From the IMG/VR virus record IMGVR_UViG_3300032242_001466, positions 1-23,192 of that record: a DNA stretch of 23,192 nt, one strand, 5' to 3'. Numbering within the stretch: the stretch's first letter is position 1; the number at the start of each line of letters is the position of its first letter. This DNA is from a virus. This document shows, one piece after another, positions 1 through 20,188 of this stretch. The notes beneath the pieces were generated by a model. That model did not search any database, had not been told where the DNA came from, and saw only the letters and a program-made list of their open reading frames with translations. The translations under genes and the position numbers were made by a program.

Positions 1-23
1 AGGATATCCATAATCGTAAACAA

Positions 24-392
24 ATGGCATTAGATAGACTTAAAGATTTTATAAAAGAAGGAATTGTTGTAGATACTAGTGAATTTTTAGAAAGATGTGG
101 ATTGGGTTCTATGAATGAAAAATTGAGTGCTAAATATAAACGTTCAATAGATTGTTCTCACCCAAAAGGATTTTCACAAAGAGCACATTGTCAGGGTAGA
201 AAGAAACATGAAGTGATTGAAGAAGCAATGGAATTATTTTTAGAAAGAAATTGTCCAACTGACCAAGCTAAATGGTCAGCATCAAAAGCAGCAGCAAAGA
301 AAAAGTTTGATGTATATCCATCAGCTTACGCAAATGGATGGGCTGCAAAAAATTACAAATCAAAGGGAGGAGGTTGGAAAACCTGTAAGTAA
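24..392 (+). CDS. Small phage protein with a Cys-containing motif and a Lys/aromatic-rich C-terminus
   Basis: A 122-residue protein, probably virion-associated, of unknown function. Two segments look conserved-domain-like: a basic stretch with two cysteines at about residues 38-58 (KYKRSIDCSHPKGFSQ, then AHCQGRKK), and a C-terminal segment with the pattern KKFDVYPSAYANGWAAKNY followed by a KSKGGGWK-like end. From memory, such C-termini recur in small or multidomain proteins of marine phages and giant viruses (DUF5872-like); I cannot confirm this here. The reading frame stays open from base 3 to the ATG at 24, so the true start may lie upstream of the window and the product could be longer. 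The next gene begins directly after its stop codon (TAAATG), so the two are likely co-transcribed. Confidence 0.7.
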   Translation: MALDRLKDFIKEGIVVDTSEFLERCGLGSMNEKLSAKYKRSIDCSHPKGFSQRAHCQGRKKHEVIEEAMELFLERNCPTDQAKWSASKAAAKKKFDVYPSAYANGWAAKNYKSKGGGWKTCK

Positions 393-1214
393 ATGATTAA
401 CGAATGTATTATTGTATCCAAAGAAGTTGGTAATAAATTTATTCTTGCTAAAAATAGAGATAGAGCTTATAAGCCTGTTTTAGAAATAGTACACACTATA
501 ATTGATGGTGTTGAGGTAGCTTACTTACATGATGTAACAACGGATTGGAGTGAGGGTATGAACGAATATGGTATTGGTGTAGTAAACGCAGCACTTTTAG
601 TTGGACATGATGAAGCTGAACATAAGATAGTTAAAAAAGGTGGTAAACCTGGACCTGATGGAGATAAAATGAGAAATATTATTAAGCAAAAAACTCTTAA
701 AGAAGCAATTAAATCAGCAATTACATATAAAGGTAAAAGTAATTTAGCACTTAAAGGACATACATTCATATCTTCCCCAAAATATATGGTTAGTATTGAA
801 TCTACATCAAAACACAAACCTGATATTAAATTGCATAATACGGAATCACCAGTAGTTAGAACTAACCATGGACATTTATTTACTGATGCCGGATATACAA
901 ATGGTATTAAGTATCTTTCATCTAAAATGAGAAAAATATCAGCAGAAAAAGTAGTTGATAAAGTAAAAAATTGGGAAGATATTGGACCGGCAATGAGAAA
1001 ACAATTTTTTTCAAAAGAATCTCAATTAAATATGAGAAGAAACACCGCTGAAATGTTTACATCTTCTCAAACTATAATGAATTTAACTGATAGAATCTTA
1101 GAAATTGAATATTTTAAAGATAAAGTTGAACGATTTGAAGGTATAAAAACAAACTTACCAAAAGGATATACCCCTAAAATACAAATTAAGGTTCAAGCCT
1201 TAAACGAATCCTAA
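393..1214 (+). CDS. Probable Ntn-hydrolase-fold amidase/acyltransferase (choloylglycine hydrolase / peptidase C45-like)
   Basis: A 273-residue protein whose N-terminus resembles Ntn hydrolases of the linear-amide C-N hydrolase group. Cys5 sits in MINECIIVSK and is followed about 16 residues later by KNRDRAYKP (Asn21, Arg22, Asp23), which matches the RN-x-D signature after the catalytic cysteine. Further family-like features are WSEGMNEYGIGVVNAAL (about 52-67) and VVRTNHGHLFTDAGY (about 154-168), where Asn158-His159 recalls the TNH motif of C45 enzymes. In the family, the N-terminal cysteine is the nucleophile once preceding residues are removed, so MINE would have to be cleaved off. The substrate is unknown; in a phage it could be a lipid amide, a peptide or a cell-wall bond. 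It abuts the preceding gene with no gap and is followed by a promoter-like gap. Distant similarity only; function inferred. Confidence 0.6.
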   Translation: MINECIIVSKEVGNKFILAKNRDRAYKPVLEIVHTIIDGVEVAYLHDVTTDWSEGMNEYGIGVVNAALLVGHDEAEHKIVKKGGKPGPDGDKMRNIIKQKTLKEAIKSAITYKGKSNLALKGHTFISSPKYMVSIESTSKHKPDIKLHNTESPVVRTNHGHLFTDAGYTNGIKYLSSKMRKISAEKVVDKVKNWEDIGPAMRKQFFSKESQLNMRRNTAEMFTSSQTIMNLTDRILEIEYFKDKVERFEGIKTNLPKGYTPKIQIKVQALNES

Positions 1215-1229
1215 GTTTTCATAGAAATC

Positions 1230-1238
1230 ATATTTATA
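1230..1238 (+). promoter_or_regulatory. Candidate phage late promoter element (ATATTTATA), copy 1
   Basis: ATATTTATA lies in the 50-base gap after the Ntn-hydrolase-like gene, 26 bases before the ATG at 1265. The same nonamer occurs in four other gaps of this window. The A-rich leader between motif and start has no Shine-Dalgarno sequence. Promoter function is inferred from position and recurrence. Confidence 0.55.
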
Positions 1239-1264: not shown

Positions 1265-1657
1265 ATGTCAACAGAATTTGAATTATTTCCTGGTAAATCT
1301 CTAAGTGGATTATTCCAAGACATATACAACAATCAAACGCAAAAGAAAGTAAAAATAAGCGAACTAATCAATGAATTGAAAAATATGGTTAGACATGCTG
1401 GTGATATGGGAACTGTAGGTCCTATAATCTCATCCCTAATAGATAGTTCCGTTAAAAATGATGACCAATTGGTTAAATTAGCTGCATTAGCTCAAAAGTT
1501 AGTAGCAGCAGATAAAAAAACAGAAGGGCAAGAAGGATTTCTTTCTGCATTTGAAAAAGAACAATTACTTAGAGATTTAGAAGAAACTAAATTAGAAGTT
1601 GAAAGAGTTGATGATTTGGAATTTGAGTTAGAAGATTTAAAAAAGAAAATGAAATAA
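1265..1657 (+). CDS. Small alpha-helical/coiled-coil phage protein, unknown function
   Basis: A 130-residue acidic, helical protein that I do not recognise. The N-terminus (MSTEFELFPGKSLSGLFQDI) is followed by a helical segment containing VRHAGDMGTVGPIISSLID (about 42-60). The last ~40 residues are Glu/Leu/Lys-rich with heptad-like spacing (LLRDLEETKLEVERV and onward), suggesting a coiled coil. It is the first gene after a candidate late promoter and directly precedes the hub/spike gene (1 base between stop and start). It could therefore be a small baseplate hub component or an assembly chaperone; this is inference from position alone. Confidence 0.75.
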   Translation: MSTEFELFPGKSLSGLFQDIYNNQTQKKVKISELINELKNMVRHAGDMGTVGPIISSLIDSSVKNDDQLVKLAALAQKLVAADKKTEGQEGFLSAFEKEQLLRDLEETKLEVERVDDLEFELEDLKKKMK

Positions 1658-2892: not shown

Positions 2893-4080
2893 ATGTCTTG
2901 GCAAATATTCAAAAATAATATTTTAAGTAGAGCTAATTCACCAGAAGGTATAAAAACTTTAAATGAAATAGCTGAATTATATGCAACTGAATATGATGCG
3001 GCAATAAAAAGAGGTGGTGATACAATTAATCATATTCCTGTAATGGAAGGGAATGTTGATACAATGAAAGAAATGTTCAAAATGGCATTTCAACAAGGTG
3101 CAAATTCAGTAAGACCATACGATTTAGTTGGAAATATGGGTAATGGAGTATTGGCATATTGGCAAGGGGTTCAATTAAATAAATCTCCAATCCCATTAAT
3201 TCCAGCAGCAGGTTCTACTATAAATGTTTCAATAACATCTGCGGTATGTACTAATCCGGGACAATGGCAACTTGGTGCACCAGGCACACCAGCATCAGAT
3301 ACGCCATCAACCCCAGAAGAAGTTGAGCAAAAAACTATTGAAGAAGACCATATTGAGTTTGATAAAAATCAATATGTTTATCAACAACAATTTCCTAGCG
3401 AAGAAGAGGCTATGAATAATAATAGTCAAGTAACACAAAAAGAAGCTTTATCTAATGTTCAACAATTTAATCAGTCACAAGTAATTGTTGATAATCAGCA
3501 ATCACCAAAACCAATACTTGTTGGTAGGGGAGATGAGGCATTATTTAAAAAATGTGGAAATGGTGAATGGCCTGCTTTAGGACAGCCAGGTAATTTTATA
3601 GTAGATAGTACAGAAAATACAGGAACAAAATGTTCAGCACCTATAAGATACTGGTATAAAGTAAATCAAAAATATTTAACAAAAAATTGTACCGAAATAT
3701 TATTTCCAACAATAAAGGGAGATAAAAAAATAATGATACATAAAGATTTGGCAGCAATAATAAAACCAGCATTAGTAGAAATAAAATCAACTGGGTTGCA
3801 TAAATATATAGCAACTTGTGATGGTGGGATGGCGGTTAGAAATGTAACTTGCGGAAGTAGATTTTCAAATCATAGTTGGGGAACTGCAATTGATATGAAT
3901 GCTGGGGTGTATCCATATGGAACTAAATTTGGAACTGATGGTGTATATTCTGGAAAAACAAAATTAAGAGATTTTACTCCATTTGATACTGGATTTTTAC
4001 AAGTAGCTCAAATATTTAAAAAACATGGAATGACGTGGTTGAGTAATAATGACCCAATGCACGTTTCAATATACGAATAA
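2893..4080 (+). CDS. Tail-associated protein with C-terminal M15-type D-Ala-D-Ala peptidase domain
   Basis: A 395-residue two-part protein. Residues 1 to about 115 form a structural-looking N-terminal module (MSWQIFKNNILSRANSPEG, then YDAAIKRGGDTINHIPVM). A Gln/Glu/Asn-rich low-complexity linker spans about 130-205. The C-terminal ~190 residues match zinc peptidases of family M15 (VanY/endolysin type): FSNHSWGTAIDMN supplies the S-x-H-x6-D pattern with His327 and Asp334 as zinc ligands, and DPMHVSI near the end supplies Asp387 and zinc-binding His390. Family members cleave peptide cross-links of peptidoglycan. Its place immediately after the hub/spike gene suggests the enzyme rides on the tail tip and opens the cell wall during infection. 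Several cysteines in the C-terminal domain (such as CGNGEW, KNCTE, ATCDGG, VTCGS) could form disulfides. Confidence 0.85.
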   Translation: MSWQIFKNNILSRANSPEGIKTLNEIAELYATEYDAAIKRGGDTINHIPVMEGNVDTMKEMFKMAFQQGANSVRPYDLVGNMGNGVLAYWQGVQLNKSPIPLIPAAGSTINVSITSAVCTNPGQWQLGAPGTPASDTPSTPEEVEQKTIEEDHIEFDKNQYVYQQQFPSEEEAMNNNSQVTQKEALSNVQQFNQSQVIVDNQQSPKPILVGRGDEALFKKCGNGEWPALGQPGNFIVDSTENTGTKCSAPIRYWYKVNQKYLTKNCTEILFPTIKGDKKIMIHKDLAAIIKPALVEIKSTGLHKYIATCDGGMAVRNVTCGSRFSNHSWGTAIDMNAGVYPYGTKFGTDGVYSGKTKLRDFTPFDTGFLQVAQIFKKHGMTWLSNNDPMHVSIYE

Positions 4081-4081
4081 T

Positions 4082-5089
4082 ATGTCAGCATTACCTCCTA
4101 CAAATGATACAACAATAATAATAGATGAATTTATAGCATATGCTACTGCTCATTTACAAACTGTTAGTGGAATTATAAATACAATATCATTATACCCACC
4201 AGTTGGAACTCCGGGTCCTGGTATTGTTCAATGGAATGGATATTTTGTTGATGAAGCTCAACCTGGTGGAGGAGCCGTACCACCCGAATCTGATTTTAAA
4301 ATGACAGATGATGATATTGCTGAAAAAAAGAAAGAAATTGCACAGGCTGAGGAAACTATAAATAATCCTAATGCATCTGAAGAGCAAGTCCAAACTGCAA
4401 CAGAATATAAAGAACTTTTAACACAAGAAGTAGAAACTAAAGAATTTAATTCAATACCAAATGAAAATGTAAAACCACAAGAAGTAGAAACGCATGTAGA
4501 TAATATAGTTAAAATAGCAAATAGTGACCCTAGTTTTAAATGTGATATTGGATTGAAGGTAGTAGAAGCTGCAAGAAAAGATATTGGTATTTTGGAAACT
4601 GGAACTGCTGCAAATCATGGGGCTGGTAAAAACTATGGAGGTAAATTAAATCCAAATGGAGAATCGCCAGTAGGACAAGCTGGTAGAATAGATACTATGG
4701 TTAGTTTAGCAGGATTAGATAATCAGGCTCAAGTTAGAGCAACTGGAGAAGGTTATTATTGGTGCGCATCAGCAGTAACCGCTTGGTGGAAATCAGCAGG
4801 ACTTAAAACACCTCCTGGCGCTGCATCTTGTAAAAGTTGGGCTAGTTGGGGTAAAAGTAAAGGATTATATTCTAAAGTTCCAACTGTTGGAGCAGCTGCA
4901 TTATATGGACCTGAGGGTAAAGAACATCACATTGGAATTGTAGCATCGGTTAGTAATGGTAAAGTAACTACAATAGAAGGAAACACAGGTGGTGGTGGAT
5001 TTAATAGAAATGGGTGCGGATGTTTCTTAAAAACTCCTAATGTTAAGAATATAACTGGATATGTTATTCCGCCGGGTTGTAATAAATAA
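4082..5089 (+). CDS. Tail-associated protein with C-terminal CHAP-type peptidoglycan hydrolase domain
   Basis: A 335-residue protein. The frame also has an ATG at 4049 inside the previous gene, but the ATG at 4082 is preferred because it forms the TAATATG junction used repeatedly in this window. The N-terminal part (about 1-155) includes a Gly/Pro-rich stretch (YPPVGTPGPGIVQWNGYF) and an acidic helical linker. The C-terminal ~180 residues look like a CHAP (NlpC/P60-like) cysteine hydrolase: GEGYYWCASAVTAWW carries the likely nucleophile Cys228, KEHHIGIVASV the likely His283, and TIEGNTGG the polar residues Glu299/Asn301. Such enzymes cut amide bonds in peptidoglycan. It directly follows the M15-bearing protein, so the baseplate region encodes two wall hydrolases of unrelated fold. 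Confidence 0.8.
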   Translation: MSALPPTNDTTIIIDEFIAYATAHLQTVSGIINTISLYPPVGTPGPGIVQWNGYFVDEAQPGGGAVPPESDFKMTDDDIAEKKKEIAQAEETINNPNASEEQVQTATEYKELLTQEVETKEFNSIPNENVKPQEVETHVDNIVKIANSDPSFKCDIGLKVVEAARKDIGILETGTAANHGAGKNYGGKLNPNGESPVGQAGRIDTMVSLAGLDNQAQVRATGEGYYWCASAVTAWWKSAGLKTPPGAASCKSWASWGKSKGLYSKVPTVGAAALYGPEGKEHHIGIVASVSNGKVTTIEGNTGGGGFNRNGCGCFLKTPNVKNITGYVIPPGCNK

Positions 5090-19575: not shown

Positions 19576-19773
19576 ATGTCAAGTTTAATTGATTTATACA
19601 CAAAAAACACTCCTAAGACGGGTAAAATAGATTCTAAAGGTACTGATAAAACTATCATTGAAGATAAAAAATCAGATGATAAAACTTTAGAAAAGTCTAG
19701 ACATGGAAAATTAGGAACTGGAGTTGGTGGATATGATAACCAAAAAACATATTCATCTCAGATTAAAAGATAA
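19576..19773 (+). CDS. Small basic hydrophilic protein, unknown function
   Basis: A 65-residue, Lys/Asp/Thr-rich protein, probably largely disordered (SKGTDKTIIEDKKSDDKTLE), ending with GKLGTGVGGYDNQKTYSSQI. No family was recognised. It is supported as a gene by its own promoter-like motif with a conserved A-rich leader, and by the TAATATG junction to the following gene. It could be a small virion or assembly protein given that its promoter is of the late type. Confidence 0.65.
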   Translation: MSSLIDLYTKNTPKTGKIDSKGTDKTIIEDKKSDDKTLEKSRHGKLGTGVGGYDNQKTYSSQIKR

Positions 19774-19774
19774 T

Positions 19775-20188
19775 ATGAGCTGGAAATTTAATGGAAATAT
19801 TGTTACAGAAGAAAGCACCCCTCAAGGTGCTATTGGTTTTGTATATAAAATTATACACAAACCAACTGGAAAATATTATATAGGAAAAAAATCCCTAAAT
19901 CAAGTAAGAAGATTAAAACCCTTAAAAGGTAAGACTAGAAAAAGAGTTGTAAGAAGTTCTTCTGATTGGGAAAAATACTATTCATCAAATGAATGGATTA
20001 AATCAGAAGTAAAAGCTGGTAAAAGTGAAGATTTTGAAAGAGAGATTATTCAGTTTTGCTATTCTAAAAAATCTTTAACATATTTTGAAGTATATTGGCA
20101 GTTTAAATACGATGTACTTTCAGACCCAAATTCAATAAACGAAAACCTTATGGGAAAATTCTTCCGTAGGGATATAATAAACCAATAG
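19775..20188 (+). CDS. GIY-YIG-type protein, SegE-like putative endonuclease
   Basis: A 137-residue protein. An upstream in-frame ATG at 19724 lies inside the previous gene; the ATG at 19775 is preferred because of the TAATATG junction and the start MSWKFNGNIVTEES. The domain begins with GAIGFVYKIIHKPTGKYYIG, a GIY-YIG-type hairpin (G-F-V-Y then Y-Y-I-G), followed by a basic segment (LKGKTRKRVVRSSSDWEKYY) that gives candidate catalytic arginines, and a glutamate in LTYFEVYWQF. SegE-like GIY-YIG proteins of T4-like phages are usually called homing endonucleases. Some copies are single-domain and may act on other DNA. No intron or insertion footprint is visible nearby. Confidence 0.75.
   Translation: MSWKFNGNIVTEESTPQGAIGFVYKIIHKPTGKYYIGKKSLNQVRRLKPLKGKTRKRVVRSSSDWEKYYSSNEWIKSEVKAGKSEDFEREIIQFCYSKKSLTYFEVYWQFKYDVLSDPNSINENLMGKFFRRDIINQ

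Follow-up and report, generated by a model that had tools for sequence, protein, structure and literature searches.

A predicted C45-like cysteine Ntn hydrolase encoded beside the virion genes of a group of uncultured T4-like phages

The stretch of DNA that was analyzed (the window), a virus record of 23,192 bases, carries T4-like baseplate genes, among them gp25 (PF04965, E 1.1e-13) and a gp6-like wedge gene (PHROG 219), as well as M15 peptidase and CHAP protein genes. Near its start lies an open reading frame whose product begins MINEC (Table 1). The initial annotation had described this product as an Ntn-hydrolase-like enzyme encoded among tail genes, with a cysteine at residue 5, a KNRDR motif and a later RTNHG motif. 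In the translation all three are where they had been placed (C5, 20-24 and 156-160), and the description of the surroundings is right, as the downstream ORFs resemble hub/spike, M15 and CHAP lysin, gp25 and gp6 genes. The stop codon of the preceding ORF directly abuts the start of the Ntn gene; that ORF (window 3-392), which is cut at the window start, matches DUF5872 weakly (E 0.0012, below the cut-off) and was assigned to PHROG 27331. The M15 peptidase and CHAP lysin genes stand in tandem (window 2893-5089), and in relatives the lysin slots are filled by two CHAP enzymes, two M15 enzymes or a single enzyme, such that the hub lysin cassette looks modular. A gene for a SegE-type GIY-YIG endonuclease (window 19724-20188; Pfam PF19835, E 1.4e-26) was also found among the structural genes.

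Table 1. Features of the Ntn hydrolase locus (positions are those of the window)
Feature	Position	Strand	Basis
C45-like cysteine Ntn hydrolase gene, 273 aa	393..1214	+	NF040521 match; AlphaFold2 model; fold matches to IAT, NAAA, BSH and TANGO2
Leader peptide MINE, predicted to be removed	393..404	+	Leader pattern in homologues
Cys5, predicted N-terminal nucleophile	405..407	+	Invariant (114/114); aligned with Cys103 of IAT, Cys126 of NAAA, Cys2 of BSH
K20-N21-R22-D23-R24 motif	450..464	+	Invariant (114/114); N21 and D23 correspond to IAT Asn119 and Asp121
R156-T-N158-H-G160 motif	858..872	+	Invariant (114/114); N158 corresponds to the oxyanion-hole Asn (IAT Asn246)
R180, corresponding to IAT Arg268	930..932	+	Invariant (114/114); Asn-to-Arg spacing +22 in both
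ATATTTATA, late-promoter-like motif between the Ntn gene and the hub genes	1230..1238	+	All 5 copies intergenic
Conserved 130-aa neighbour gene, used as independent bait	1265..1657	+	Ntn gene just upstream in 66/66 tested loci

Relatives of the protein were confirmed in viral contigs, 301 in the first scan and 441 with a wider query. Among the named phage records (n = 50,697, tblastn), only Chryseobacterium phages MA9V-1 and MA9V-2 matched, at 42% identity; a match to Eggerthella phage EL753P1 (E 0.3), whose gene is in an apparent head-gene position, was taken as chance. In hmmscan the window protein matched NF040521 (C45_proenzyme) with an E value of 6e-6, and 31 of the 49 dereplicated relatives matched it at E <= 1e-3 (best 3.1e-11). 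Together with the fold search described below, this match supports the assignment to Ntn hydrolases of the C45/choloylglycine type that had been made from the sequence. However, the NF040521 scores shown were ~26-38 bits, well under the curated cut-off of 85 bits, and for that reason we do not claim formal membership of the C45 family. Pfam AAT (PF03417) had weak matches in three of the 49 members, and neither CBAH (choloylglycine hydrolase) nor TANGO2 was present in the Pfam scan lists of those members; Pfam matches to DUF6641, DUF6961 and 2-Hacid_dh were rejected as weak and inconsistent. Searches of the PDB by sequence alone, with the protein and with profiles, gave no credible match, and no cellular relatives were detected by tblastn in two genome-contig scans that used patterns fitted to the phage proteins. 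When the profile was compared with that of a Rhodococcus C45 protein, the C, NxD, GMNEYG, S-S-x-x-R and T-x-x-S blocks, which include C-terminal ones, were aligned, with the same C...NxD spacing as in the phage protein; at a probability of 54% this lends support without being decisive. Two BFVD entries, A0A1B1IVH7 and A0A8S5L6I8, were also noted, namely a 944-aa viral protein that contains this Ntn domain (TM 0.91, 37% identity) and a 355-aa protein of Myoviridae sp. ctA4D8, which is a distant relative (23%).

Structure prediction and fold comparison had been suggested as a check on the initial annotation, and the AlphaFold2 model (49-row alignment; pLDDT 87.1, pTM 0.87) has the alpha-beta-beta-alpha Ntn-hydrolase fold. 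The best Foldseek matches were acyl-CoA:isopenicillin N acyltransferase (IAT; 2x1c, rank 1, E = 1.2e-8), CV2077, choloylglycine hydrolase and NAAA, and the VIA-align Z values were 21.6 for CV2077, 20.1 for NAAA, 19.9 for IAT, 17.6 for BSH, 16.9 for acid ceramidase and 16.4 for TANGO2. Residue 5 of the model (or the precursor stretch 1-5) falls at the nucleophile of the solved relatives, with the alignment beginning at residue 5 in most rows, and the nucleophiles facing it in the structure alignment are Cys103 of IAT, Cys126 of human NAAA, Cys2 of BSH and Cys2 of TANGO2. The catalytic residues of IAT, as numbered in a paper on TANGO2 (PMC13044924), are Cys103, Asn119, Asp121, Asn246 and Arg268. 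In that numbering Asn119 and Asp121 are at +16 and +18 from the Cys and Arg268 is at +22 from Asn246, and the phage residues C5, N21, D23, N158 and R180 have these same offsets.

All five residues are invariant in the 114 distinct homologues (114/114). They include Cys5 and Asn158, loss of which in close homologues would, according to the initial annotation, have spoken against an Ntn hydrolase, and the conservation of Cys5 and its alignment with known nucleophiles support the catalytic role proposed for it. The basic residues K20, R22, R24 and R156 are likewise invariant in the homologues. We consider it very probable that the window protein is a cysteine amidohydrolase of C45-like type whose function depends on a free N-terminal Cys, and a chemistry that would employ that Cys, an Asp, an Asn oxyanion hole and an Arg is well supported by analogy with the solved enzymes.

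A leader of 4-12 aa precedes the Cys in 107 of the 114 distinct homologues. Leader lengths are mostly 4, 5 or 7 residues, with Met counted and with a few ATG-less leaders, whose true length is unsure, cut at 4 residues by the script; the sequence is variable apart from the last residue, which is always Glu. The other seven homologues start directly with Met-Cys, with no other start codon upstream within reach, and at least three changes between the Glu-Cys and Met-Cys states were seen on a quick maximum-likelihood tree. This pattern, with its repeated switches, strongly suggests that the form with a free N-terminal Cys is the working one, and the natural Met-Cys homologues lend support to the prediction that MINE would be lost to free Cys5. 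The alpha-chain propeptide of C45 enzymes (~90-100 residues) is absent, since the NF040521 match begins near position 100 of 313. As methionine aminopeptidase is unable to remove MINE, the Glu-Cys forms, if their Cys is to become N-terminal, would need either self-cutting or a protease. An invariant residue just before the cut is also compatible with removal of the leader by an outside protease, of the host or the phage, in which case the Glu would not be there for self-cleavage; to our knowledge, moreover, Glu is not the residue at the cut sites of IAT, NAAA or acid ceramidase. Against such a protease, which we consider unlikely, the leaders differ in length and in sequence except for the Glu, and Ntn hydrolases of the C45/IAT type usually self-cleave. 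Self-cutting of the first few residues is the reading we prefer, and it is apparently what switches on the phage enzyme, which by type belongs with penicillin acyltransferase and acid ceramidase. Because homologues of both kinds, Glu-Cys and Met-Cys, occur in nature, they offer a clean set in which the minimal self-cleavage of Ntn hydrolases can be studied.

Among 106 distinct loci, the Ntn gene is followed by the 130-aa neighbour and then a spike-like 410-aa gene in 66, by the gene for a 225-aa protein and that for the large subunit of terminase in 18, and by a polynucleotide kinase-like gene in six. When the 130-aa neighbour was used as bait, the Ntn gene was directly upstream in 66 of the 66 tested loci; of 14 loci initially excluded for short upstream DNA, four show the end of the Ntn gene and ten have almost nothing upstream to test. 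With gp6 as bait, the gene was, by our reading of the matches, present in 16 of the 17 contigs with >=7 kb upstream of gp6 (one copy broken), and in that set the 35-kb contig G049 has no Ntn gene. Three of 66 copies (L368, L372 and L380) are apparently broken by an internal gap or deletion or a frameshift, for which assembly error is possible. Over 3,597 pairs the median dN/dS ratio (Nei-Gojobori) was 0.14 and the highest 0.47, and the gene is, as judged from these sequences, under purifying selection. A large group of uncultured T4-like phages retains the Ntn gene beside virion genes and keeps it very faithfully; we designate it near-core in this clade only, because the loci sampled are the closest relatives of the window.

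By gp6, the nearest named phages are Flavobacterium phage immuto (39%) and Microcystis phage Mel-JY01 (41%), in neither of which was the Ntn gene matched by tblastn of the named phage records; MA9V-2 has the Ntn gene, but a search made without a positive control gave no gp6 match in it. Because of these opposite patterns, it seems that the gene is passed from one phage lineage to another. The host is probably a member of the Bacteroidota, to judge solely by the MA9V and immuto relatives. Less can be read from the hub neighbourhood than one might think, because other phages have the gene upstream of terminase or portal genes and because, in the window, a promoter-like motif lies between it and the hub genes.

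Copies of this motif, ATATTTATA, lie at window positions 1230, 5098, 16649, 18594 and 19546, all on the + strand and 7-27 nt before the next ORF. All five are intergenic, though intergenic DNA makes up only 326 bases of the window; the total count by itself is not above chance, with five reached in 21 of 100 shuffles. The 8-base core of the motif was found in 63 of 113 homologous downstream stretches. Over all loci the + strand has about five times as many copies of a shorter form, ATATTTAT, as the - strand, and this form occurs within 61 nt upstream of the Ntn gene in 33 of 110 homologues, where ~2 would be expected from the + strand rate. The motif has the look of a late promoter (that of T4 is TATAAATA), and ATATTTATA is a probable late promoter of this phage group. 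Since the motif is 3' of the Ntn gene in the window and the gene start abuts the upstream stop, the Ntn gene of the window belongs to the upstream unit and not to the hub operon.

We propose that the nascent protein would fold and that Cys5 would attack its own Glu4-Cys5 bond, freeing the Cys5 alpha-amino group, while in the Met-Cys sister forms the host methionine aminopeptidase would remove the Met. In the freed enzyme D23 would hold the Cys5 amino group, N158 and N21 would polarise the substrate carbonyl and R180 would position the Cys, and the enzyme would then hydrolyse, or transacylate, an amide bond. Our best guess at its role is that it would be made late in infection, would attack an anionic amide, N-acyl or peptidyl, in the envelope of a Gram-negative and probably Bacteroidota host, and would so help lysis or release. 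The envelope N-acyl-amide idea stems from the nearest solved relatives and the late-gene position, and the choice of substrate from family analogy and the run of invariant basic residues (K20, R22, R24 and R156); we put forward this substrate tentatively. A more specific version, which we regard as unlikely, is that this near-core late enzyme would cleave a carboxylate-bearing amide, such as an N-acyl amino-acid lipid or a glutamyl amide of the envelope, to aid lysis, with the invariant Glu of the leader acting as a substrate mimic in a basic pocket formed by those four residues.

The same fold might instead act on an intracellular small molecule, such as an acylated amino acid, a signal, a defence messenger or an antibiotic-like compound, and serve host takeover rather than lysis. 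This alternative is a serious one, if short of an even chance, as the gene is not tied to one structural operon (it stands before baseplate genes, before terminase or beside a polynucleotide kinase-like gene) and is also found in the Chryseobacterium jumbo phages MA9V-1/2, which are of another lineage; its adjacency to late genes and the late-promoter-like motif upstream in 33/110 homologues suggest late synthesis, which tells against it. In most loci the gene keeps a fixed place upstream of the hub genes, which are accompanied by M15 and CHAP lysins, and this would suit an enzyme that works on a tail or capsid protein by trimming or acylating it, or one that enters with the tail. We consider a role of that kind improbable given the alternative gene locations in sister phages, the lack, among the fetched homologues, of any copy fused to a virion module (none has a reading frame >322 aa) and the fact that the solved structures nearest to it are of amidases and acyltransferases that act on small molecules. 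That the protein is a catalytically dead Ntn fold kept for structure or binding is highly improbable, as its five catalytic residues are invariant and Glu-Cys and Met-Cys are the only two states between which the leader switches, a restriction that a need for a free N-terminal Cys would explain.

In the literature on phages and Ntn hydrolases, as far as titles and the openings of abstracts go and with subscription journals poorly covered, no phage-encoded enzyme of the C45/IAT type was described, and none was found for an acid ceramidase-like or choloylglycine-like phage enzyme; this absence is weak evidence. The leader pattern, the missing propeptide, the near-core status, the purifying selection and the late-promoter-like motif are new here. 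If active, the protein would be a widespread, near-core phage enzyme, and it would point to an undescribed envelope or small-molecule step of infection in T4-like phages.

Among known systems, TANGO2/NRDE (8sv7) has the Met-Cys start and later NRD motif of part of the phage family and a similar fold, but it has Lys166 where the phage protein has Arg180, its Cys-Asn-Asp spacing differs and no Pfam TANGO2 match was seen. Choloylglycine hydrolase and penicillin V acylase (PVA; 3hbc and 2iwm) are alike in fold (Z about 17) and differ in residue spacing, with no sequence-profile match seen; members of that family gain their N-terminal Cys when the Met is taken off or, as in B. sphaericus PVA, when a short leader is lost. 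The NAAA and acid ceramidase structures (6dy2 and 5u81) share the fold and the Cys/Asp/Asn/Arg set, and the two enzymes hydrolyse amides of N-acyl lipids, an activity that the phage enzyme may have in common with them, whereas their Asn-to-Arg spacing is +13, against +22 in the phage protein, and their alpha chain is large. IAT (MEROPS C45; 2x1c and 2x1d) has the same fold and the five catalytic residues at equal spacing, and its precursor, which frees an internal Cys, can be likened to the phage protein; its alpha chain, however, has 102 residues, where the phage proteins have a Glu-terminated leader of 4-12 aa or the Met alone, its pocket residues Trp120 and Phe122 correspond by position to phage Arg22 and Arg24, and identity is about 12%. 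The closest named counterparts are the hypothetical proteins of the Chryseobacterium jumbo phages MA9V-1 and MA9V-2 (e.g., WNN12488.1), which come from phages of another lineage than the window and have a 12-aa leader, and which are 42% identical over the full length with all motifs kept.
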